From Solibacteraceae bacterium (GTDB lineage Bacteria > Acidobacteriota > Terriglobia > Bryobacterales > Bryobacteraceae), in the NCBI GenBank assembly GCA_021324015.1, contig JAJPJX010000095.1, positions 1-64,000 on the forward strand: 64,000 nucleotides of DNA. The letters run 5' to 3'. The notes beneath the pieces were generated by a model. That model was not told the DNA's origin. It searched no databases and saw only the letters and a program-made list of their open reading frames with translations. The first letter of the stretch is position 1; each line of letters opens with the position of its first letter. Positions 10,106 through 35,437 of the stretch are shown one piece after another. The position numbers and the translations under genes were made by a program.

Positions 10106-10945
10106 ATGGGGATTCCGATTCGCCGCTTGCTCGCGCGGTTTGGGCCGCCGTCCACCGACAGGCTGGCGCGACTCCGGAGGGTGTTGCGTTCCGCGGTGCG
10201 TTCGCGGCGATACGCTCTTCTGCTGCGCGCCGCCGGACTGGACACTCCCGAAGCCACTTTCCGGCGGAAGACAGTACAGGAAATCCTGGCTCGCCTCCCC
10301 TGGACTTCCTACGCCGAGTATTGCCTGGCTCCCGGCGAGTTCGAGAATCGTGAGGCGCCGGAAAACCCTAGGCCGGTGCTGGCTTATCCGTTCCCTCCGG
10401 GGCCGGCCATTGTCTTTTACGATGGTCGCAGTGCCCTGCCGCGGCTCTCCCGGCATCAGACCCTGGCGGCCCGACCGGAAGCGCTCAGCGCATGGGCCCA
10501 CCGCATCCTGCGGGGAGAAATTCCGCGCCCGCCCTTGGAGCACGTCATCCTGTCCCTGGCCGGCGCGTGGGAGGGGCACCTCCCGGAAACAGGCAGAGAT
10601 CTGTTGTGGCGGGCGTTCCGGGTGCCGGTCTTTGAACAGTTTTTGGACGGAGACGGCCATGTCATGGCAGCCGAATGCGAAGCGCACGAAGGGCTGCACA
10701 TCGCGCCGGAAGCGGGTATTTTCGAGGTACGGCACGGAGAGCTGTTTCTGACGTCACTCGAGGCGCTACGCCACCCCGCCCTGCGCCTGGGCACGGGGTT
10801 CCGTGGCGAAATCGACCCGCGCGTCTGTTCCTGCGGGCGCAGCACACCTCGTCTCTGCAACCTCACTCGTGCCGCAGCCTCCCGCACCGCCGCAGACTCC
10901 CAGGCGGCGCTTGCCGAAGCTTATTTTCCGGTCAGTTTGCGCTGA
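10106..10945 (+). CDS. Truncated PaaK/CapK-like protein (AMP-ligase fold remnant)
   Basis: 279 residues. It starts with a basic helical segment, and the middle and end resemble the C-terminal half of phenylacetate-CoA ligase/CapK proteins: FRVPVFEQFLDGDGH, MAAECEAHEGLHIAPE and CSCGRSTPRL correspond to the YGxTE-region, AAECxxxxGLHI and CxCGRxxPR segments of that family. The usual ATP-binding loop (SSGTTGxP) and the final GR-lysine region are absent, so adenylate formation is doubtful. It is 34 bases after the amidohydrolase gene on the same strand and probably co-transcribed. Its last 25 bases overlap the end of the convergent coiled-coil gene. Function unknown; a binding or scaffold role for an acyl substrate is only a guess. 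Confidence 0.7.
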   Translation: MGIPIRRLLARFGPPSTDRLARLRRVLRSAVRSRRYALLLRAAGLDTPEATFRRKTVQEILARLPWTSYAEYCLAPGEFENREAPENPRPVLAYPFPPGPAIVFYDGRSALPRLSRHQTLAARPEALSAWAHRILRGEIPRPPLEHVILSLAGAWEGHLPETGRDLLWRAFRVPVFEQFLDGDGHVMAAECEAHEGLHIAPEAGIFEVRHGELFLTSLEALRHPALRLGTGFRGEIDPRVCSCGRSTPRLCNLTRAAASRTAADSQAALAEAYFPVSLR

Positions 10946-11757
10946 ATGCGCTGGGCTTGCGCCGTCAGGCTGCTGAATTGCCGCAAGTCCTCTTCGGCCA
11001 GGGCAATCGAATTCTGGATCCGCGACACGTCGATAGTGCTCATCCCCCCCACATCCGTGCGCCGGTTGTCCATCATTCCCGACAGGGTGCGGTACTGATC
11101 GGTCAGCTCCCGGTAGCGCCGCAGGATTCGGTTGAGCGTGGCCTCCTGGCGGAGGTAGATATCCTGCAAATCCGCGATGCCCTGCGTGAGCTGGCTGATG
11201 CGTTGCGAATCCGTAGTGGCTTGCTGGCGCAGCTTTTGATCCGTGATCTGGGTCTGCGTCAGGCGGTCGCTGTTGCTTTTCAACTCGCGCTGCAAGGCAT
11301 CCACCAGCCGCCGGGCGGAGGCCAGGTTGTCCGTCAGATCGGATTCGGACGCGGAGAGGCGCTGGTTTTCGGAGGTGAGTTTACCGACTTGCCCCTGGAG
11401 ATCGAGGAGATTGTTCTGCAGGTCGTTAATGGAGGCGTTGTCCCGCGCCAGGCTTTCCTGAAGGGTCTGGATGGTTTTTGCCGCTTCGACCGCCGCCTGG
11501 GCGTAAGCGCTCTCCGCCGGGCTCTTGGCCGCGGCCTCCGGAGATCCTCCGGCCACCGGAGCCTGGGCCGCGGCGCGCGCAGCCGTCAACTGCCGGTCCA
11601 ACTCGGCTGCGCGGGCCCGCAGTTGCCGCTTCTCGGCGCTTGCCTGCGCCAGGCTAAAGTTCTGTTTCCCGATGGTCCGCGCCTGCCATATAATGGTTCC
11701 GGCCGCGGCCGCGAGCACCACCGCGAACAGAAGCATCAGCCAGAACTTCGGTTTCAC
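10921..11757 (-). CDS. Membrane-anchored coiled-coil protein of unknown function
   Basis: 278 residues. One N-terminal membrane segment (about 5-23, FWLMLLFAVVLAAAAGTIIW) is followed by an almost entirely helical, Gln/Ala/Leu-rich region (about 30-275) with heptad-like spacing. An alanine/proline break lies at about 65-85. This is typical of a periplasmic or cytoplasmic coiled coil tethered to the inner membrane. No enzymatic motif is visible. It is the last gene of an apparent operon with the VWFA-related protein (four bases upstream) and the plug-less barrel, so an envelope-spanning structural role is a reasonable inference. It overlaps the PaaK-like gene tail to tail by 25 bases. Confidence 0.8.
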   Translation of the reverse strand: MKPKFWLMLLFAVVLAAAAGTIIWQARTIGKQNFSLAQASAEKRQLRARAAELDRQLTAARAAAQAPVAGGSPEAAAKSPAESAYAQAAVEAAKTIQTLQESLARDNASINDLQNNLLDLQGQVGKLTSENQRLSASESDLTDNLASARRLVDALQRELKSNSDRLTQTQITDQKLRQQATTDSQRISQLTQGIADLQDIYLRQEATLNRILRRYRELTDQYRTLSGMMDNRRTDVGGMSTIDVSRIQNSIALAEEDLRQFSSLTAQAQRIQRKLTGK

Positions 11758-11761
11758 AAGA

Positions 11762-12691
11762 TCACCTCCCTTTCAGGAAGAACAGCGTGCGGTAAGTCAG
11801 GGTGTGTTTGTCCCCCGCCTCGAGTTGCACCTGCACGCGCCTCATTCTCCGTTCCGGCACCGCCAGCGTGACACTGTAATGTGAAGAAATCAACTCCAGC
11901 ATCTGCTGCATGGCCTCGGGAATTTCCCCGCTCGACCGGCAAAAGGTGGCGGAGCCACCCGTCAAATCCGCCGCCTGCTTTAAACCGTTCTGATACGCCT
12001 CCCCCAACCGGTCATTGCGATACCGCAGATGCAGGATGAACAGGGGGGTCTGCCGCGCGGCCAGGACGGTATTCAGCTTGGAGAACTTCTCCTGAATCAG
12101 TGTCTCCGGGAAACGGCGGCTCAGGTCGTGGGTGTCGCTGGAATTAATCACCGGATTGGTGTAATCTTCGCGGTAATTCTCAATCTCGCTGTCGGTGACA
12201 TAGAGTACCGCTACGCGCACCGCGGTTTTGGTGAGGATGGAGTCGCCGAGTTGCTCGGCGGTCTCAACGGTTTCGAGAAGGCCCGCCTTGCCGCTGACAG
12301 GCAGGTTCTGGATGGCCTCCGTGACCGCCCCCCGGTCGGCGGTCGGATCCACCAGGACCTTCAGTCCGTCCTGGGCCCGCAGCACGCCAACGTAAACCTT
12401 CGGCGGCAGCTTGGAGATTCCGGCGACCAGCGCGTCCTTGGCGGGCTCCACGCGGGACAGGTCGCCCACTACGTCCAGCACCACCAGCAGCATCAGGAAG
12501 TCGCTCGGCCCTTTCACGTCCAGCACGCGGGAGTCCGCCCCACCCAGCTTGGCATGGAGGTCCTTTCCGTCCAGCGGATCGGCCGCCTTGGCGTCCACCC
12601 ACACGGGCACACGGATCTGCCGGGCCGGCATTTTCGCCGGCGGAGCCGCGAGCAAGGCCAGGCAGCAACCCGCCGCAGCCATCCACCGCAT
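11762..12691 (-). CDS. Secreted VWFA-related (acidobacterial) domain protein
   Basis: 309 residues with a signal peptide (AAAGCCLALLAAPPA). The rest follows the von Willebrand A alpha/beta pattern seen in acidobacterial VWFA-related proteins: a first strand LMLLVVLDVVGDLSR, a helix with KDALVAGISKL, VYVGVLRAQDGLKVLVD, RVAVLYVTDSEIENY and a late TPLFILHLRYRN strand, then the SGEIPEAMQQMLELISSHYS segment common in that family. The metal-site motif DxSxS is not intact (DVVGDLS), so ion-dependent ligand binding is uncertain. ATG 12691 lies 14 bases after the end of the barrel gene; four bases separate its end from the coiled-coil gene. Probably periplasmic or surface-exposed. Confidence 0.75.
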   Translation of the reverse strand: MRWMAAAGCCLALLAAPPAKMPARQIRVPVWVDAKAADPLDGKDLHAKLGGADSRVLDVKGPSDFLMLLVVLDVVGDLSRVEPAKDALVAGISKLPPKVYVGVLRAQDGLKVLVDPTADRGAVTEAIQNLPVSGKAGLLETVETAEQLGDSILTKTAVRVAVLYVTDSEIENYREDYTNPVINSSDTHDLSRRFPETLIQEKFSKLNTVLAARQTPLFILHLRYRNDRLGEAYQNGLKQAADLTGGSATFCRSSGEIPEAMQQMLELISSHYSVTLAVPERRMRRVQVQLEAGDKHTLTYRTLFFLKGR

Positions 12692-12705
12692 GTAACCGCG
12701 CAGCA

Positions 12706-15534
12706 CTAGAAGCTGAACCTCAAGCTCAGTTGGATCACCCTCCCGCCCCGGGAGCCGATGATCTTGCCGGCGTTCACGTTGGGCGCGCTGGCCGGACCGA
12801 TGACGTTGTCCGGATAGTTCCAGTTGGCATGGTTCAGAAAGTTGAAGCCGGCGGCGCTGAATTCCACGGTGCGGTCCGCCGCCAGCGCGAATCGCTTGCT
12901 GAGAGACAGGTCGAAATTTTGCGAGCCCGGGTTGTTCAGCCCCGGGATGGTGCGCGGGGCGTCGCCAATGCTGAAATCCGGCGGCTGATCGAACGCCGCC
13001 GGATTGAACCACTGCTCCGGGCCGGGGTTGGCCACGTGCGGATCGACGCCCGGGACGTAGTTCACGTGCAGCGCCTGGACGACTCCCCCGGTGTTGTTGA
13101 ACTCGGGATAAGGGTACACTGGCGTGCCGCTGTACAGGGCCGCCGTGCCACTCACCGACCATCCGTCGATCAGGTAGTGGCGCCAGTCGGGAAAATTCAG
13201 GAAGGGCTTGTTCGTGCCCACTGGCAGTTCGTACACGTACGTGAGCTGGAGTTGCTCCGGGACGTTGTAGGGACTCAGCGCCCACTCGTTCTGGCGATTG
13301 AAAAAGTCTTGCTTGCCGTACGGCCCGGAGTAGTCGTCCATCTGTTTGGAAACCTCCAGGTAGGCGCTGACGGAGAGCCCCAGGGAGGCGCGTTTCTCCA
13401 CGCGCAGGTAAGCGCCGTTGCGCTGATAGCGCCCCAGCGGATAGGAACTGTAGACGTTGAAGCCCTTGTATTGCGGATAAGGCCGCAGGGACTGGTTGAA
13501 CACCTCGTCGTTCAACTGGTCGCGGTAGGTCAGGTCGTCGAGTGGGATCGCGTTGGGGTTGGCCGCATAGTTGCCCACGAGCAGGTTTTTCCCTCCGGAG
13601 TAATGCGCGCCCAAGGTAACCAGCATGGACGCGGGAAGCTCCCGCTCCACGGACAGCGAAGCTGACTGGTAGGTAGGCAGCCGGTCGGTGCGGTCAATCA
13701 GATCCGCCACGGTATTGTTGGCCTCGTCCGGGCTCAGGTCCGGCACCGGCCCGGTGGTCGGCGGCAGTCCCGCGGAAAGCACCACCGCGGGCTGCAACTG
13801 CACGTTCGGCGAAATGAAGGTCGGGTAGAGGCTGAAGCCCTGCGTGCCCCACTGCCCGGTGTAGATCGGGATGGCGGAGTAACTGCGGGAGAAAGACCCG
13901 CGCACCACTGTTTTCGAATCATTCCAGGGGTTCCAGGCGATGCTGAAGCGGGGCTCCAGCCGGTTGTGGACGTCCTGAAACGCGGCTCCTTGCCCGTTCA
14001 CGCCGGCCGCGATCAGCGCGCCCGGGAGTCCGTTAGCCGGGTTGATGGTCTTCAGGTCCACCGTGCTTTGCCGGTTGTATTTCTCCGTCCGCGGCGTGCT
14101 GCGGTTCAGGTTCAGACCGATGGAGATGCTCAGTCCCTTGCGCACCTCGTAGTGATCGCTGGCATACAGATAGGAGGTCTGGCGCCGGAAATACGAAGGC
14201 GAGATGACGATGCTCTGCTCGGCAAATTCGGGCAGCCCCAGCAGAAAGCTGGCGAAGGCATGCCCCGTGTCGATGATGCCGGGCAGACTGGTCATGCCTG
14301 CCCCGAAGCGGAACAGGCCCGCCGGATACTGCGGCCAGAAGGTGTTCACCTGATAGGCCGCGTATTGCCCCTCGAAGCGGAGGGTATGCTTGCCGTGCCG
14401 CGTGGAGACGCCGTCGGTGAACACGTAGGTGTTGTTGGCGCTTTTCGAGATCGGGTAGGAACGCCCCATGTTCAGATACGGCGAAAGTTGGAAATAGGGG
14501 AAAGACTGGGCGCCGATGCCGTGGAGTCCCAGAAGTTGCCCGTAATCCGTGGTGTCGCCGAGATCGCCGCTTTGCGAAGCCGAGGAAGTGGCTTCCAGCG
14601 TAGCGGTGTTCACCGTCCGGGAAGTGGCGGTGAACACATATTGCATCGAACCGCGGCGGGTCTGAAACCGGCGGTCCGCAGGCCCTGGATTGGCCGCCGT
14701 GGGAAACCATTGGGCGGCCCCTTGGAATCCGTTGGAAAAAGCTAGTTCCATGGTCACGCGATGGCGCACCCGGATGGACTGGTCCACTTTGCCGATCATG
14801 CCGTTGGCGGTGTTCGTCTCCGGCGAGTTGATGAAATAGTTATTGCGGAAGAACGGGCCGATATCGGTGTTGGGCAGAGGATAATAGGGCACCGCCTTGG
14901 CGGCCACCGGGTCGATGCGGCTGGTGGGAATGCGGTTTCCGGGGAACGGGTCGCGCAGGTATTGCAGGTTGTCGACCGACACCGGCTGAGTGGGATCGTA
15001 TGCCGGGTTGGGGGCCGTAGTGTTCGGGTCGTAGATCGGGAGCGGCAATCCGGCCTGGTCGACCACGGCCGAGTAGTCGCCCGAGCGCTCCGGCACCGTG
15101 GGCACCGTCTCCAGGTAGGCGCGTGCGATGTGCTCCCGGACGCCTTCATAGGACAGCGAGAAGAACGTGCCGCTCGTGCCGTGCAGCAGGTGCGGGAGCA
15201 CCACCGGACCGGCCACGTTGAAGCCGAACTGGTTACGCCGCAGCAGCCCTTTGTGCCCGCCGTTCTGCGTGATTTCGTGCGGCACGGCATCCAGAAAGTC
15301 GTTGCGGAAATTTTCGAACAGGCGGCCATGCCACTGGCTGCGGCTGGCACGCTTGACGCCGGCGGGCGGCGGGCTGTCTGGCCGCAGACCCAGGTTGCGC
15401 GACACGATTTTGAATTCCTCCACGGCCTGCTCGATGGGGGTCTGCGGGACGGGCGCGGGTGCCTTGGATTGCGCCCATGCCGCTGCGGCACACCACGCGC
15501 ACACCCCGGCTACCGACAGAACCAGCCGCTCCAT
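12706..15534 (-). CDS. Oar-like outer-membrane beta-barrel protein lacking carboxypeptidase-like and plug domains
   Basis: 942 residues. After a signal peptide (VAGVCAWCAAAAWA) and a 40-residue linker it enters directly the segment that in Oar-like TonB-dependent receptors comes after the plug: WHGRLFENFRNDFLDA, then RRNQFGFNVAGPVVLPH. The rest is alternating beta-strand barrel, ending RVIQLSLRFSF with the terminal Phe that BamA recognises. The N-terminal carboxypeptidase-regulatory domain and the plug, both present in the second Oar-like gene of this window (32129), are missing. Such a barrel may be an open pore, an export channel, or plugged by a partner. It heads a minus-strand operon with the VWFA-related and coiled-coil genes. 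TACACT lies six bases before the ATG. Confidence 0.82.
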   Translation of the reverse strand: MERLVLSVAGVCAWCAAAAWAQSKAPAPVPQTPIEQAVEEFKIVSRNLGLRPDSPPPAGVKRASRSQWHGRLFENFRNDFLDAVPHEITQNGGHKGLLRRNQFGFNVAGPVVLPHLLHGTSGTFFSLSYEGVREHIARAYLETVPTVPERSGDYSAVVDQAGLPLPIYDPNTTAPNPAYDPTQPVSVDNLQYLRDPFPGNRIPTSRIDPVAAKAVPYYPLPNTDIGPFFRNNYFINSPETNTANGMIGKVDQSIRVRHRVTMELAFSNGFQGAAQWFPTAANPGPADRRFQTRRGSMQYVFTATSRTVNTATLEATSSASQSGDLGDTTDYGQLLGLHGIGAQSFPYFQLSPYLNMGRSYPISKSANNTYVFTDGVSTRHGKHTLRFEGQYAAYQVNTFWPQYPAGLFRFGAGMTSLPGIIDTGHAFASFLLGLPEFAEQSIVISPSYFRRQTSYLYASDHYEVRKGLSISIGLNLNRSTPRTEKYNRQSTVDLKTINPANGLPGALIAAGVNGQGAAFQDVHNRLEPRFSIAWNPWNDSKTVVRGSFSRSYSAIPIYTGQWGTQGFSLYPTFISPNVQLQPAVVLSAGLPPTTGPVPDLSPDEANNTVADLIDRTDRLPTYQSASLSVERELPASMLVTLGAHYSGGKNLLVGNYAANPNAIPLDDLTYRDQLNDEVFNQSLRPYPQYKGFNVYSSYPLGRYQRNGAYLRVEKRASLGLSVSAYLEVSKQMDDYSGPYGKQDFFNRQNEWALSPYNVPEQLQLTYVYELPVGTNKPFLNFPDWRHYLIDGWSVSGTAALYSGTPVYPYPEFNNTGGVVQALHVNYVPGVDPHVANPGPEQWFNPAAFDQPPDFSIGDAPRTIPGLNNPGSQNFDLSLSKRFALAADRTVEFSAAGFNFLNHANWNYPDNVIGPASAPNVNAGKIIGSRGGRVIQLSLRFSF

Positions 15535-15605: not shown

Positions 15606-16634
15606 ATGAGACTAAGCGAGATCGCCGGGCGCCTGGGTGCCACGCTGCGCGGCGACGGGGACATCGAGATCACCGGAGTGGCCGGCATGGAGCATGCCGC
15701 GCCCGGACAACTTACGTTTCTGGCGAATCCGAAATATGCGCCGAAAGTGAAGCACACGCGTGCCAGCGCCATCCTGGTGGCGCCCCCGGGCGGGGACCTG
15801 CCCATCGCCAGCCTGATCTCGGAAAATCCCTACCTGGACTTCGCGCGTGCCCTGGAACTGTTTTATCAGCCTCCCCACCCGGCGCCGGGCGTGCATCCCC
15901 TGGCGTACGTGGCCCCCAGCGCCGTGATCGGCGAAGCCGCCTCTATCGGACCCTTTGTGTCGGTGGGAGAGCGCGTGCGGATCGGCCGCAACGCGGTGCT
16001 TCATCCGCATGTCGTGATCTACGAGGGCGCCGAGATCGGGGATGATTTTCTGGCTCACTCCCACGCCGTGGTGCGGGAGTTTTGCCGGGTGGGAGACCGG
16101 GTCATCCTGCAAAATGGCGTGGTGATCGGCGGCGACGGCTTCGGATTCGCCAGGCGCGCCGATGGCACGCATTACAAGATCGTACAGTCGGGCCCCGTAG
16201 TGATCGAGGACGACGTCGAAATCCAAAGCCTCACCTCCGTGGACCGCGCCACCGTGGGCGAAACCCGCGTCAAGCGGGGAGCCAAGATCGACAGCCTGGT
16301 GCAGGTGGGGCACGCCTGCGTGGTGGGGGAAGACAACATCATCTGCGCGCAGACCGGCCTGGCGGGCAGTTCCATCCTGGAACGGGACGTGCTCCTGGCC
16401 GGGCAGGTGGGGGTTTCGGGCCACCTCACCGTGCATGCCGGCGCCGTGGTGTACGCCCAAAGCGGCATCGGCGGAGACGTCCCGGCCGGCGCGCGGGTCT
16501 CCGGCTCTCCCGCCTTCGCCGCCAATGAATGGCTGCGCGCCATCACCGCCTTTCCGAAACTGCCCGAACTGCTGAAGACGGTTCGCGGACTGCAAAAGAA
16601 AGTAGAAGAACTGGAAAAGAATGCCAAACGATAA
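15606..16634 (+). CDS. lpxD: UDP-3-O-acylglucosamine N-acyltransferase
   Basis: 342 residues. Third step of lipid A synthesis: transfers a 3-hydroxyacyl chain from ACP to the 2-amino group of UDP-3-O-acyl-glucosamine. An N-terminal uridine-binding domain (GRLGATLRGDGDIEITGV) is followed by the left-handed beta-helix of hexapeptide repeats (about 100-300), with GGDGFGFARRADGTHYKI and the catalytic histidine in VQVGHACVVGEDN, then a C-terminal helix. A GGGAGG-type ribosome site precedes ATG 15606. It is divergent from the barrel gene across 71 bases and overlaps the next gene by 14 bases. It shows the organism has an outer membrane with lipid A. Confidence 0.97.
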   Translation: MRLSEIAGRLGATLRGDGDIEITGVAGMEHAAPGQLTFLANPKYAPKVKHTRASAILVAPPGGDLPIASLISENPYLDFARALELFYQPPHPAPGVHPLAYVAPSAVIGEAASIGPFVSVGERVRIGRNAVLHPHVVIYEGAEIGDDFLAHSHAVVREFCRVGDRVILQNGVVIGGDGFGFARRADGTHYKIVQSGPVVIEDDVEIQSLTSVDRATVGETRVKRGAKIDSLVQVGHACVVGEDNIICAQTGLAGSSILERDVLLAGQVGVSGHLTVHAGAVVYAQSGIGGDVPAGARVSGSPAFAANEWLRAITAFPKLPELLKTVRGLQKKVEELEKNAKR

Positions 16635-31530: not shown

Positions 31531-32082
31531 ATGCTTATACTTGCGTCGCAGTCGCCGCGCCGCAGCGAGATTCTCCGGCAGGCCGGCATCCCCTTCCTGG
31601 CGCGCCCCGCGGACGTGGACGAGACACCCCTCGACGGGGAGGCGCCGGAAGTCTATGTCGTGCGCCTGGCGGAGGCTAAGGCGGTAGCCGTGCCGGCGGC
31701 TCCCGGCGAGGTCGTGCTGGGCGCCGACACAACCGTAACTATCGACGGCCAGACCCTCGTCAAGCCCGCTGACGCCGCCGACGCCACGCGCATGTTGGAA
31801 CTCCTCTCCGGACGGCGCCACCGGGTGATCACCGGCATCTGCCTCAAGTCCGCGCGCGCTCTGGTGCGCGACTGCGCCATCACCCAGGTCTGGTTCGCCC
31901 GCCTCTCCGCCGCTGAGATTCAGGAGTACGTCGCCAGCGGTGAGCCCATGGACAAAGCCGGCGGGTATGCCATCCAGGGACTCGCCTCCAAGTTCGTATC
32001 TCGCATCCACGGCTGCTACTGGAACGTGGTGGGGCTCCCCGTGGCGCTGGTCTACCGGCATTTACACAAGCTGGAGAGATAG
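31531..32082 (+). CDS. maf: Maf-family nucleotide pyrophosphatase
   Basis: 183 residues. Hydrolyses nucleoside triphosphates, often dTTP, UTP or modified nucleotides, to monophosphate and pyrophosphate. The family signature is complete: SQSPRRSEIL at 6-15, GADTTVTIDGQTLVKP near 65, GRRHRVITGI and EPMDKAGGYAIQG. The last motif with DKAGGY is the YhdE-like (dTTP/UTP) form. TAAGAT lies six bases before the ATG, with GAAGAA between them. Divergent from the dciA-like gene. Confidence 0.94.
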   Translation: MLILASQSPRRSEILRQAGIPFLARPADVDETPLDGEAPEVYVVRLAEAKAVAVPAAPGEVVLGADTTVTIDGQTLVKPADAADATRMLELLSGRRHRVITGICLKSARALVRDCAITQVWFARLSAAEIQEYVASGEPMDKAGGYAIQGLASKFVSRIHGCYWNVVGLPVALVYRHLHKLER

Positions 32083-32128
32083 CCAGAGCTTTCCCGGACT
32101 GCCCGGCAGTTGGTATACTCACTCCACT

Positions 32129-35100
32129 ATGTCCAGGCCGACACTTTTGAGGTTAGTCATTGGGATTGTTGTTTTGGCCCTTCCGATCGCCGCTCAGGTA
32201 AGTACCGGAGAGCTGAGCGGCTCGGTGGTGGATTCCTCCGGCGCGAGCATCGCCAATGCTAAGGTGGTCGCCACGAATGCCGCCACCGGCGTTTCGCGCG
32301 AAGCGTTCACGGACGCGGCCGGCAGCTACGTCCTCACCTTGCTGCCGCCCGGCACCTATAACCTGGCAGCCGAAGCCAGCGGCTTTCGCCGGGTGGTGCA
32401 AAACGGCATTCCCCTCCAAGTCAACCAGCGCGCGGAAGTGAACTTCAAGCTGGAAGTCGGGCAGGTCACCGAAACCGTCGAGGTGGCCGCCGCCCCGCCC
32501 CTGCTGGAGAGCGAATCTTCTTCGCTGGGCAGCGTCATTGCGGAGCAGTTTGTCGGGGAACTCCCCCTGAACGGCCGCAATTTCGTGCAATTGGCCATCC
32601 TCTCGCCCGGCGTGAACGGGACCGGTTACAGCACCTCCGGAACCATCATGAGCGGCACTCGCCCGGATGACCGCCGGCCCGGCACCGAGTTGTTCTCCAA
32701 CGGGAACCGGGAGGGCTCGAACGATTTCCTGTATGACGGCATCGATAACAACGACCGCCTGACGCTGTCTATCGTGCTGCGGCCGGGCGTGGACGCCATC
32801 AAGGAATTCAAGGTGCAGACTAACCTGTACAGCGCCGACCTGGGCCGCAACTCCGGCGCCGTGGTGGACGTGGTGACCAAGTCCGGCACCAACGACTTCC
32901 ACGGGAGCGCTTTCGAGTTCCTGCGCAATTCCGCCATGGACGCGCGCAGCTTTTTCAACGTCAAAGGAACGCCATTTCCGTCATTCCGCTACAACCAGTT
33001 CGGCGGCTCGTTCGGCGGGCCGGTGGTGCTGCCGGGCGTCTACAACGGCAAGAACCGCACCTTCTTTTTCGTGGACTACGAAGGCTACCGGCGCACTTCC
33101 CTGAGCACGCTGACCGTGACCGTGCCGACCGTTGCCATGCGCACGGGCGATTTCAGCGCCGCCAACCGCATCTTCGATCCGCTGACCACGCGGCCCAATC
33201 CCTCGGGATCGGGATTCCTCCGCGACCAGTTCCCCGGCAACATGATCCCCGCCTCGCGCTTCGATCCGGTGATGGCGAAACTGATCAACGCCTACCCGCT
33301 GCCGCAGAACAGCAACGCCTTCAACAATTACATCTCCAACCTGCGGCAACTCCAGAACTGGGACCAGGGCGACGTGCGGGTGGACCACCAGATCAACGCC
33401 GACAACACGTTTTTTGCGCGATGGTCCATCCAGCACACTGCCACCATCGTGCCCAACACCTTCCCGGCAGTGCAGATTCCCGGCATTCCCAATCCGGTTT
33501 CCATCGGCAACGAAGATTCCTTCGCCGGCACTTCTTTTTCGCCGGACCAGCACGCCGTGGCCGACTACGTGCACATCTTCTCGCCGCGCCTGATCAACGA
33601 CTTCCGCGTCGGCTTCAACCGCTTCCTGCTGGACTACACGGCGGAGGGCGCCGCGCCCGGGGCCAACCTGGGCAACGCGCTGGGAGTGGCGAACGCCAAT
33701 TCCGAGCCGCAGCAGACCGTGTTGCCTATCTTTTCGCCGGCCAATTATGCCGGTGCCGGTGACAGCCGGTCGCTGCCGATTTTCCGGCGTGAAAACACCT
33801 TCCAATATGTGGACAACGTGACCTACACCCGGGGCCAGCACACGCTGAAATTCGGAGGCGATATCACCCGGCGGCAGATCACCGAGTATCAGACCAACCG
33901 CGGCAACGGGCGGTTTAACTTCAGCCCGGCCTTCACCAACCTGCCGGGCGTCGGCTCCACCGGCGACAGCATGGCCAGTTTTCTGCTCGGCTATCCAACC
34001 CTCATCGAACAGGACTTCACCCTGGCCTGGGTGGGCATGCGGGGCATCGAGAGCGGCGTCTATTTCGCCGATGACTGGCGCCTGGGGCGCCGGCTGACGC
34101 TCAATCTGGGTTTCCGCTGGGACTATTACAGCCCGTATAGCGAAGTCGCCAACCGCTGGGCGAACTTCAACGCCGATACGGCCACCGTGCTGATCGCCGG
34201 CCGCAACGGTGTCGGTTCCACCGCCGGCGTGAACCGCGACCTGCACGATTTCGCGCCCCGCTTCGGCTTCGCGTACCGGTTGCTGGACCACACCGTCATC
34301 CGCGGCGGCTACGGCGTCTTCTACAACCCCAACGGCAACGGCGGCGCCAACCTGCGCCTGGAACGGCACATCCCCTTCGGACCGATCTACTCCATCAGCC
34401 CGGGCGATATCAACGTGGGCCCGCGCGTCAGCGACGGTTTTCCCGCCCCGCCCACGGTCAACTTCGCCTCCGCCGACAACCCCACCGGCAGCGTCATCGG
34501 CGTGTTTCCGAATTTCAAATCCGCCTACGCGCAGCAATACAACTTCACGCTGGAGCATGAGATCGCGCCCTGGCGCACCATCATCAAGCTGGCCTACGTA
34601 GGCAACCTCGGCCGCCGGTTGGGTACCACCTTCAATCTGAACCAGCCCGTGCCGGGTCCGACCGCGCTGAACACCCGGCGCCCGTTCTACGGCGCGCGCC
34701 CGAGCCTGGCGGACATCACGTATTCGGTTTCCGACGGCCTGAGCAACTACAACGCCATGCAATTGACCGTGGAGAAGCGCTTGAGCCACGGCCTCTCCAT
34801 GCTGCTGGGCTACACCTGGGCGCACGCCATCGACAATGTGGGCACGGATTTCGGCGGCGGCAGCGGCACGCCGCAGGATCCTCGCAACCGGAACGCGGAC
34901 CGCGGCAACTCCGCCTACGACATGCGCCACCGACTGACCATCAGCTACACCTACCAACTGCCGCTGCACCTCCATAACAGCGCCGCCCGGCTGGTGCTGG
35001 GCGAGTGGCAGGTGAACGGCATCACCACCGCGCAGACCGGCCTGCCCTTTACACCGCAGTTGCAGACTCCCACAACCAACTGCTGCGCCAGCCGCCCGGA

Positions 35101-35437
35101 CCTGCTGCGCAACCCGAACCTGCCCTCCAGCCAGCGTTCCATAAGCCACTGGTTTGATCCCACCGCCTTCGGCACGCCGGCGCCTTATACTTACGGGAAC
35201 GCCGGCCGCGACATCCTCTTCGGCCCCGGACGCGTGAACTTCGACTTCTCCCTGTTCAAGGATTTCCCCATCCACGAGGCCATGAAGATCCAGTTCCGCG
35301 CCGAGTCGTTTAACGTGTTCAACACGCCGCAATTCGGACTTCCCAACGCGAGCATCGGGAACGCCCAGGCCCCGGTGATCAGTTCCATCGTGGGCAATCC
35401 GCGGCAGATGCAACTGGCTTTGCGGCTGCAATTCTAA
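32129..35437 (+). CDS. Oar-like TonB-dependent receptor with N-terminal carboxypeptidase-regulatory domain
   Basis: 1102 residues, outer membrane. Signal peptide (LVIGIVVLALPIAAQ), then the carboxypeptidase-regulatory-like domain (about 23-105; TGELSGSVVDSSGASI, YNLAAEASGFRR), a plug with the LPLNGRNFVQLAIL motif typical of acidobacterial and Myxococcus Oar-like proteins, the post-plug segment (FHGSAFEFLRNSAMDARSFF, RYNQFGGSFGGPVVLP) and a large beta barrel ending LALRLQF. These proteins are thought to handle large substrates such as proteins or glycans; the substrate is not readable. TATACT lies nine bases before ATG 32129. The bicupin gene follows at once. Confidence 0.92.
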   Translation: MSRPTLLRLVIGIVVLALPIAAQVSTGELSGSVVDSSGASIANAKVVATNAATGVSREAFTDAAGSYVLTLLPPGTYNLAAEASGFRRVVQNGIPLQVNQRAEVNFKLEVGQVTETVEVAAAPPLLESESSSLGSVIAEQFVGELPLNGRNFVQLAILSPGVNGTGYSTSGTIMSGTRPDDRRPGTELFSNGNREGSNDFLYDGIDNNDRLTLSIVLRPGVDAIKEFKVQTNLYSADLGRNSGAVVDVVTKSGTNDFHGSAFEFLRNSAMDARSFFNVKGTPFPSFRYNQFGGSFGGPVVLPGVYNGKNRTFFFVDYEGYRRTSLSTLTVTVPTVAMRTGDFSAANRIFDPLTTRPNPSGSGFLRDQFPGNMIPASRFDPVMAKLINAYPLPQNSNAFNNYISNLRQLQNWDQGDVRVDHQINADNTFFARWSIQHTATIVPNTFPAVQIPGIPNPVSIGNEDSFAGTSFSPDQHAVADYVHIFSPRLINDFRVGFNRFLLDYTAEGAAPGANLGNALGVANANSEPQQTVLPIFSPANYAGAGDSRSLPIFRRENTFQYVDNVTYTRGQHTLKFGGDITRRQITEYQTNRGNGRFNFSPAFTNLPGVGSTGDSMASFLLGYPTLIEQDFTLAWVGMRGIESGVYFADDWRLGRRLTLNLGFRWDYYSPYSEVANRWANFNADTATVLIAGRNGVGSTAGVNRDLHDFAPRFGFAYRLLDHTVIRGGYGVFYNPNGNGGANLRLERHIPFGPIYSISPGDINVGPRVSDGFPAPPTVNFASADNPTGSVIGVFPNFKSAYAQQYNFTLEHEIAPWRTIIKLAYVGNLGRRLGTTFNLNQPVPGPTALNTRRPFYGARPSLADITYSVSDGLSNYNAMQLTVEKRLSHGLSMLLGYTWAHAIDNVGTDFGGGSGTPQDPRNRNADRGNSAYDMRHRLTISYTYQLPLHLHNSAARLVLGEWQVNGITTAQTGLPFTPQLQTPTTNCCASRPDLLRNPNLPSSQRSISHWFDPTAFGTPAPYTYGNAGRDILFGPGRVNFDFSLFKDFPIHEAMKIQFRAESFNVFNTPQFGLPNASIGNAQAPVISSIVGNPRQMQLALRLQF

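Follow-up and report, generated by a model that had tools for sequence, protein, structure and literature searches.

Background

The plug lodged inside the barrel is among the defining features of TonB-dependent receptors (TBDTs), and in the Oar type of these proteins, represented by Oar of Myxococcus, a carboxypeptidase-like domain (CarboxypepD_reg) is followed by the plug and by the barrel. Laboratory removal of the plug breaks function in Oar and in FpvAI, according to the available portions of the two reports (PMC6434023, PMC10994204). In Myxococcus xanthus, cells made less of an engineered plug-less Oar, which was delivered to the outer membrane and failed to secrete PopC, and the variant without both the plug and the N-terminal extension did not accumulate (available portion of PMC6434023). 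A soluble plug supplied in trans partly rescues plug-less FpvAI in the accessible text of PMC10994204. The reverse case, plug genes with incomplete barrels, is described for cyanobacterial TBDTs in what is accessible of PMC2771747, and SusC structures lacking the plug are ascribed to plug displacement in vitro in the available part of PMC7782687. Among other barrels, plug-free homologues of Wzi lying near polysaccharide-export proteins have been proposed as export pores (PMC9603273, in the part available). The literature searched, whose coverage is partial and especially so for subscription papers, describes no natural plug-less TBDT lineage.

Here we examine an Oar-type barrel gene found in the window, that is, the whole stretch of 64,000 nucleotides analysed (contig JAJPJX010000095.1 of the Solibacteraceae assembly GCA_021324015.1), and compare it with its orthologues, with the plugged paralogues of the source genome and with the genes that accompany it.

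Architecture of the barrel protein

The gene (12706..15534, minus strand) encodes a plug-less Oar-type barrel protein of 942 amino acids that matches the outer-membrane barrel family PF25183 with an E value of 1.8e-146 (490 bits against a cut-off of 30), residues 67-935 covering positions 8-838 of the 838 in the profile, nearly end to end. A signal peptide of approximately residues 1-21 (15472..15534, minus), with the cleavage at AWA/QS judged by eye from the sequence, opens the protein, and the N-terminus is hydrophobic in its relatives too. The barrel domain, delimited by structural alignment and conservation to residues 66-942 (12709..15339, minus), ends in the aromatic residue F942, which is invariant in the 42 plug-less barrel sequences. 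About 44 residues lie between the putative cleavage site (around residue 21) and the barrel, in good agreement with the initial annotation, which had placed the start of the mature protein 40 residues before the post-plug segment. Neither the CarboxypepD_reg families PF13620 and PF13715 nor POTRA matched the 942-aa protein at E <= 0.1, and a PDB sequence search with this barrel as query gave nothing at E <= 1.

In front of the barrel ATG the frame is open for only 20 codons (962 open in total). The next gene upstream is lpxD (15606..16634, plus; TIGR01853, E = 1.6e-99), a divergent neighbour outside the set of genes considered here. It is read from the opposite strand, and 71 bases separate its start codon from that of the barrel gene, so that no upstream exon-like gene exists.

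By our own count from the DSSP list, the AlphaFold2 model, built with 42 sequences (pLDDT 84.7, pTM 0.78), has a barrel of 22 strands that spans residues 69-941, and a helix (residues 33-47) followed by a linker, both of low confidence, comes before it. The best 50 PDB matches found by Foldseek are all TBDTs, and the 50 matches listed by VIA-align are TBDT structures or models as well (Z between 19.0 and 23.7). In 49 of these 50 matches the aligned range opens at residues 63-67 of the model, the exception being a modelled FhuA with a range from residue 42, and on the side of the TBDT chains it starts, for example, at FhuA 158, BtuB 134 and Cir 162, positions that we take to lie just past the plug. 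Since the ranges start after the plugs, a full barrel is predicted and a plug is not. The first 60 residues, where the initial annotation had left room for a hidden plug, hold no plug fold in the AlphaFold2 model or in the VIA-align results.

Conservation of lumen-facing and lipid-facing positions did not differ significantly (p = 0.24). The extracellular loops make up about 494 of the 942 residues in our own topology, and their conservation in the plug-less barrel was 0.60 as against 0.53 in the strands, the same figures being 0.50/0.54 and 0.61/0.59 in two plugged control families (a third, present in only 3 of 81 genomes, was left out). Loop conservation seemed special when compared with one control family but not with the second, and was dropped as a special sign.

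Absence of the plug and controls

The absence of the plug is unreadable from Pfam, because the Pfam Plug family (PF07715) fails to match even the second, plugged Oar-like receptor of the window (31940-35437, plus), which carries PF13620 and the whole barrel from profile position 1. The plug was tested by means of a home-made profile derived from 26 plugged paralogues of the same genome (L016, L023 and L025 were left out) and by structure. This profile scored 170 bits on the second receptor, which thus has both of the domains missing from the barrel protein, as had been claimed from the window alone, and gave no match on the 942-aa protein. It likewise matched none of the 106 orthologous barrel copies that have their N-terminal part, from 103 other genomes, and the plug is absent by profile from 3 further copies (G011, G017 and G035). 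The plugged control frames come, with few exceptions, from further genomes of the same family, and the profile matched 30 of 31 in one set (L205 lying outside it) and all 18 of the other (48 of 49 together), and the sole control missed, L204, is cut at a contig end. The census comprised 104 other genomes, 102 from the search of 200 genomes of the order and 2 from other families of the phylum. G004, with the C-terminal part alone, stands outside the N-terminus count, the fragmentary orthologues in G103, G108, G114, G173, G191 and G199 stand outside the census, and G175 was removed from the barrel tally as its match is a plugged paralogue (L176). Copies L034 (internal TGA), L073 and L142 (internal stop in both) were counted by frame only and are absent from alignment A1.

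Ahead of the last plug element the protein counts 35 residues, compared with 162-474 in the frames of 29 paralogues (210-281 in 22 of them, the counts including codons before the true starts), and its N-terminal part falls approximately 200 residues short of that in most of these paralogues. The stretch that holds the TonB box in plugged relatives is absent, and a crude, self-made TonB-box-like pattern, which misses many plugged receptors and would overlook an unusual box, occurred in none of the 42 plug-less N-termini and in 14 of 26 plugged segments. A separate plug gene was searched for in six frames in 84 loci and in the window (ORFs of at least 40 codons, E <= 0.01; the flanks of L114-L173 were not part of the search), and none was found beside the barrel. 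The seven frames matched are other receptor-like frames of 458-1202 aa, namely the second receptor of the window and frames on L054, L066, L071, L079 (weak), L081 and L101, and a plug gene next door was consequently rejected for the 84 loci and the window. The initial annotation had named an upstream exon-like gene in relatives as a mark of truncation, and neither the divergent lpxD nor the searched loci gave any sign of one.

One scrap of the plug has been kept. Residues 34-48 (15391..15435, minus), with the motif AVEEFKxxTRxL, were recognised by HHalign and conservation as a retained plug element: in local mode they align with the DAIxEFKVxT element of the plug profile (probability 89%, pairwise E = 2e-6, 15 columns), a short match that is weak in forced global mode, where the probability is only 14%. 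Conservation peaks over residues 36-52 (mean majority fraction of 0.67) between variable flanks with values of 0.34 and 0.36, and the low-confidence helix of the AlphaFold2 model lies over the element. The remainder of the plug's conserved end (SAEYGRxxGGxxxxxxKSGTN) has given way to a variable linker in the plug-less protein. A retained scrap with the rest replaced points to descent of the plug-less barrel from a plugged receptor. The proposal that the barrel lacks both the carboxypeptidase-like and the plug domain therefore stands for the domains, both being absent, and needs correcting for this 15-residue element. Our guess is that the scrap has been kept for contact with the partner protein described below.

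The plug profile also gives a view of the other receptors of the source genome. The genome, of 8.2 Mb, gives 141 matches (with 150 of 175 candidates scored), which amounts to a very large set of Oar-type receptors, several of which are divided between two frames or interrupted by the end of a contig. One unusual receptor, L237 (C39:11500-17500 of the source genome, minus; also L016), is a 1117-aa frame with a barrel and without a match to the plug profile, in which a long glycine-rich segment (GGGFGGRGGG...) occupies the place of the plug and the start looks carboxypeptidase-like by eye.

Conservation, origin and selective constraints

The barrel is matched at E <= 1e-90 in 113 of the 200 genomes of the order (the plugged paralogue in G175 included), mostly with 43-67% identity, and the paralogues of the source genome matched over most of the query reach at most 33%. 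Carriers include Bryobacterales bacterium F-183 and several metagenome genomes of Bryobacteraceae, and the length and N-terminus of the plug-less form are kept in more than 100 genomes. In a quick tree of 60 rows the plug-less copies make up one side of a branch with 100% SH-aLRT, within which L094 and L095, the copies that belong to other families of the phylum, split from the remaining 26 at 92%. A single ancient loss of the plug is the simplest account of these data. In 11 close pairs dN/dS ranged between 0.045 and 0.172 for the barrel gene and between 0.106 and 0.235 for the gene following it, and with values this low the plug-less barrel is no relic.

Most genomes have a single copy, with two each in G003, G059 and G195, and tandem duplication was observed at L096 (G003) and L098 (G059). 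In-frame stops were seen in L034 (G177, TGA) and L142 (G195, TAA), which may be recent decay or assembly errors.

The VWA partner and the other neighbouring genes

The next gene (11762..12706, minus) encodes a secreted VWA-fold protein (VWA_2, E = 3.2e-6) with a signal-like N-terminus. Its GTG start overlaps the TAG stop of the barrel gene by one base, and an in-frame ATG at 12691 is an alternative start. The fold is that of the AlphaFold2 model (pLDDT 92.5), which aligns with VWA structures at Z between 16.4 and 18.6 among the 50 matches listed. Canonical VWA domains have a metal site of the form DxSxS...D. D76 and D170 are invariant in 38 sequences of the partner, but T, A, S or V stands at position +2 and in most cases D or E at +4, so that the site is non-canonical and integrin-like binding is not implied. 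A loop at residues 170-201 of window:11762-12700 (12098..12193, minus, from the alignment), following the strand of the conserved D170, gathers 14 of the 23 invariant positions of the 38 sequences, and the pLDDT of the model dips to 59 at residues 181-190. TIGR03436 scores 32.4 bits on this protein, below its family cut-off of 81.25.

Among the 98 testable copies, that is, those with an intact barrel 3' end and at least 1000 bases downstream, the VWA gene follows the barrel directly in 96, with a median gap of 20 bases. Both exceptions are first copies of tandem duplicates: in G059 the one VWA gene comes after the second barrel copy, and in G003 the contig ends inside the second copy, while on a different contig the VWA gene follows the end of a barrel. 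Across the 200 genomes, 111 of which are matched by the VWA profile, 110 have both genes, 87 have neither and 3 have a single one. In the three (G117, G140 and G193) the contig stops where the other gene should be, and G117 still shows the beginning of its VWA gene, which scores 51 bits. In a wider sample of the phylum the VWA profile matches 4 of 396 genomes at E <= 1e-30, namely the source genome, a second member of its family and two members of other families, and both of the latter have a plug-less barrel in front of the VWA gene. The question raised by the initial annotation, whether plug-less forms are conserved together with their VWA-related neighbour, is answered by this pairing in the affirmative.

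For the third gene, which encodes a coiled-coil protein with an N-terminal hydrophobic stretch (10921..11757, minus; weak coiled-coil-type matches below the cut-off), the same expectation held in part: its C-terminal segment is conserved (alignment A3) and it is frequent, being present in 49 of the 69 copies testable with at least 2200 bases downstream, but it is not obligate. Its profile finds none in the other 20, and the downstream genes vary by eye in the 11 such loci that were opened. The coiled-coil gene was accordingly rejected as an obligate third member and is a companion rather than a core part.

Two further observations concern the surroundings. The divergent lpxD stands upstream of the barrel in many relatives, not in all (loci with it include L034, L035, L061, L084, L087, L105 and L108-L112), and a TIGR00730-family gene is often found behind lpxD. 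At the other end, a 279-aa frame (window 10106-10945, plus) runs opposite to the coiled-coil gene, overlapping its 3' end, and bears a weak likeness, far below the cut-off, to the C-terminal part of AMP-dependent CoA ligases.

Proposed function and alternatives

We propose that the protein is a TonB-independent outer-membrane pore or scaffold that is gated or loaded by the VWA protein, a reading to which we give about an even chance. The lineage would be a single ancient offshoot of Oar-type TBDTs that kept the 22-strand barrel whole and lost the parts for coupling to TonB and for closing the pore, namely the carboxypeptidase-like domain, the TonB-box region and nearly all of the plug. A protein that lacks both the plug and the TonB-box region offers TonB no ordinary point at which to pull. 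Given that the two genes are almost always paired, the VWA protein is the obvious candidate for whatever closes, fills or uses the barrel, which is inherited with it and probably depends on it. Acting from the periplasmic side, the VWA protein may have assumed the plug's role and now gate the barrel, occupy it or load it. We infer a physical complex of the two, together with its pore state and transport direction; the conserved VWA loop (residues 170-201), a candidate barrel contact, and the N-terminal EEFKxQTRxLGLR segment of the barrel protein would be the likely sites where they meet, and in many species the coiled-coil protein might tether the pair across the periplasm. In its most specific form, that the lineage traded a TonB-pulled plug for the VWA protein and became a two-component TonB-independent gate or translocon in which that segment and that loop constitute the gate, the proposal is tentative and we lean against it. 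Counting against a VWA-gated barrel is the fact that 87 of the 200 genomes of the order manage without the pair, and the co-inheritance of the two genes could alternatively reflect a shared pathway without contact. Further points against it are the failure of the engineered plug-less Oar, the non-canonical metal site, the brevity of the plug-element match and the two conservation tests, in which neither the lumen nor the loops gave a signal in favour of a pore or of a special surface.

The near-strict pairing, and the overlap or close spacing of the two genes, would also fit an export channel, with the VWA protein, or one of its domains, as the cargo that passes through the barrel to the surface in the style of two-partner secretion. 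Precedents for export exist, Oar being needed for PopC secretion in M. xanthus (PMC6434023, available portion) and plug-free Wzi homologues having been proposed as export barrels (PMC9603273, available portion), but the engineered plug-less Oar does not secrete in the former report. Moreover, no passenger, repeat or surface anchor was recognised by eye in the VWA protein, whose compact fold would require unfolding or a wide pore, and we consider export unlikely. In a role other than that of a pore, long extracellular loops would fold inward, the barrel protein would serve at the surface as a receptor or a scaffold for adhesion, and the VWA protein would act as its clamp, either in the periplasm or at the surface. 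Such a role would fit a barrel with more than half of its residues in well-conserved extracellular loops and a partner of VWA fold, a common binding fold. One plugged control family equals that loop conservation, and this role appears to us improbable, although together with export it is the main rival.

Two other explanations concern the absence of the plug itself. Supply of the plug in trans by a separate gene has a model in FpvAI, whose soluble plug restores the plug-less receptor (in-trans complementation as reported in the accessible part of PMC10994204), but the 84 loci have no such gene beside the barrel, and of the three short-frame genome matches examined one is a degenerate fragment and the other two read through into a barrel and break off at, or close to, the end of a contig, which leaves this explanation very little weight. 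That the protein is a truncated, frameshifted or decaying receptor, or one with a wrongly placed start, is what its N-terminal shortfall relative to the paralogues might suggest. The same length and N-terminus in so many genomes, purifying selection, a signal peptide of its own and the 20 open codons upstream reject this possibility and refute it for practical purposes.

A lineage in which the plug was lost naturally and long ago, and in which strong selection has kept the barrel beside one constant partner, suggests that such a barrel can be put to other use in the absence of TonB, and it is a direct test case for the necessity of the plug as well as for the way in which a TBDT barrel becomes a pore or scaffold with another gate. 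For a group that is common among soil bacteria, the pairing also provides the first genetic partner of proteins that would pass in family searches for ordinary receptors, or for VWA proteins of an unknown kind.

Comparison with known systems

TpsB proteins of two-partner secretion are POTRA-bearing 16-strand barrels, and the protein described here, with its 22-strand TBDT barrel and no POTRA match, is not of that kind. Among TBDTs, the 22-strand fold is present in the model and the plug domain is absent, and within the Oar subclass PF25183 is present and the N-terminal CarboxypepD_reg is absent. It thus shares with Oar-type transporters the barrel family, the number of strands and an end-to-end match to the barrel profile, and differs from them in the lack of the carboxypeptidase-like domain, the TonB-box region and the plug and in its near-constant VWA partner gene. 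The partner in turn resembles TIGR03436, the VWA-domain proteins of Acidobacteriota, in its weak match and in the VWA fold of its model, and departs from it in the score below cut-off, in the non-canonical metal site and perhaps also in its highly conserved loop of the NPVINSSDxxDLSRRFP type.

On paper the engineered plug-less TBDTs, Oar delta-plug and the FpvAI barrel, have the same architecture as our protein, the Oar variant without plug and N-terminal extension being the most similar of the engineered forms, but they are laboratory deletions that lose function, whereas the protein of the window belongs to a natural lineage under purifying selection. Wzi offers a parallel of another sort, since its barrel, normally occluded by a plug, has natural plug-free relatives, as TBDTs have in the present lineage, although it has 18 strands, an alpha-helical plug and other partners. 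Taken together, the precedents of Oar, FpvAI and Wzi suggest that the loss of a plug needs compensation and make a gate supplied in trans and an export pore both plausible outcomes for a barrel of this kind.
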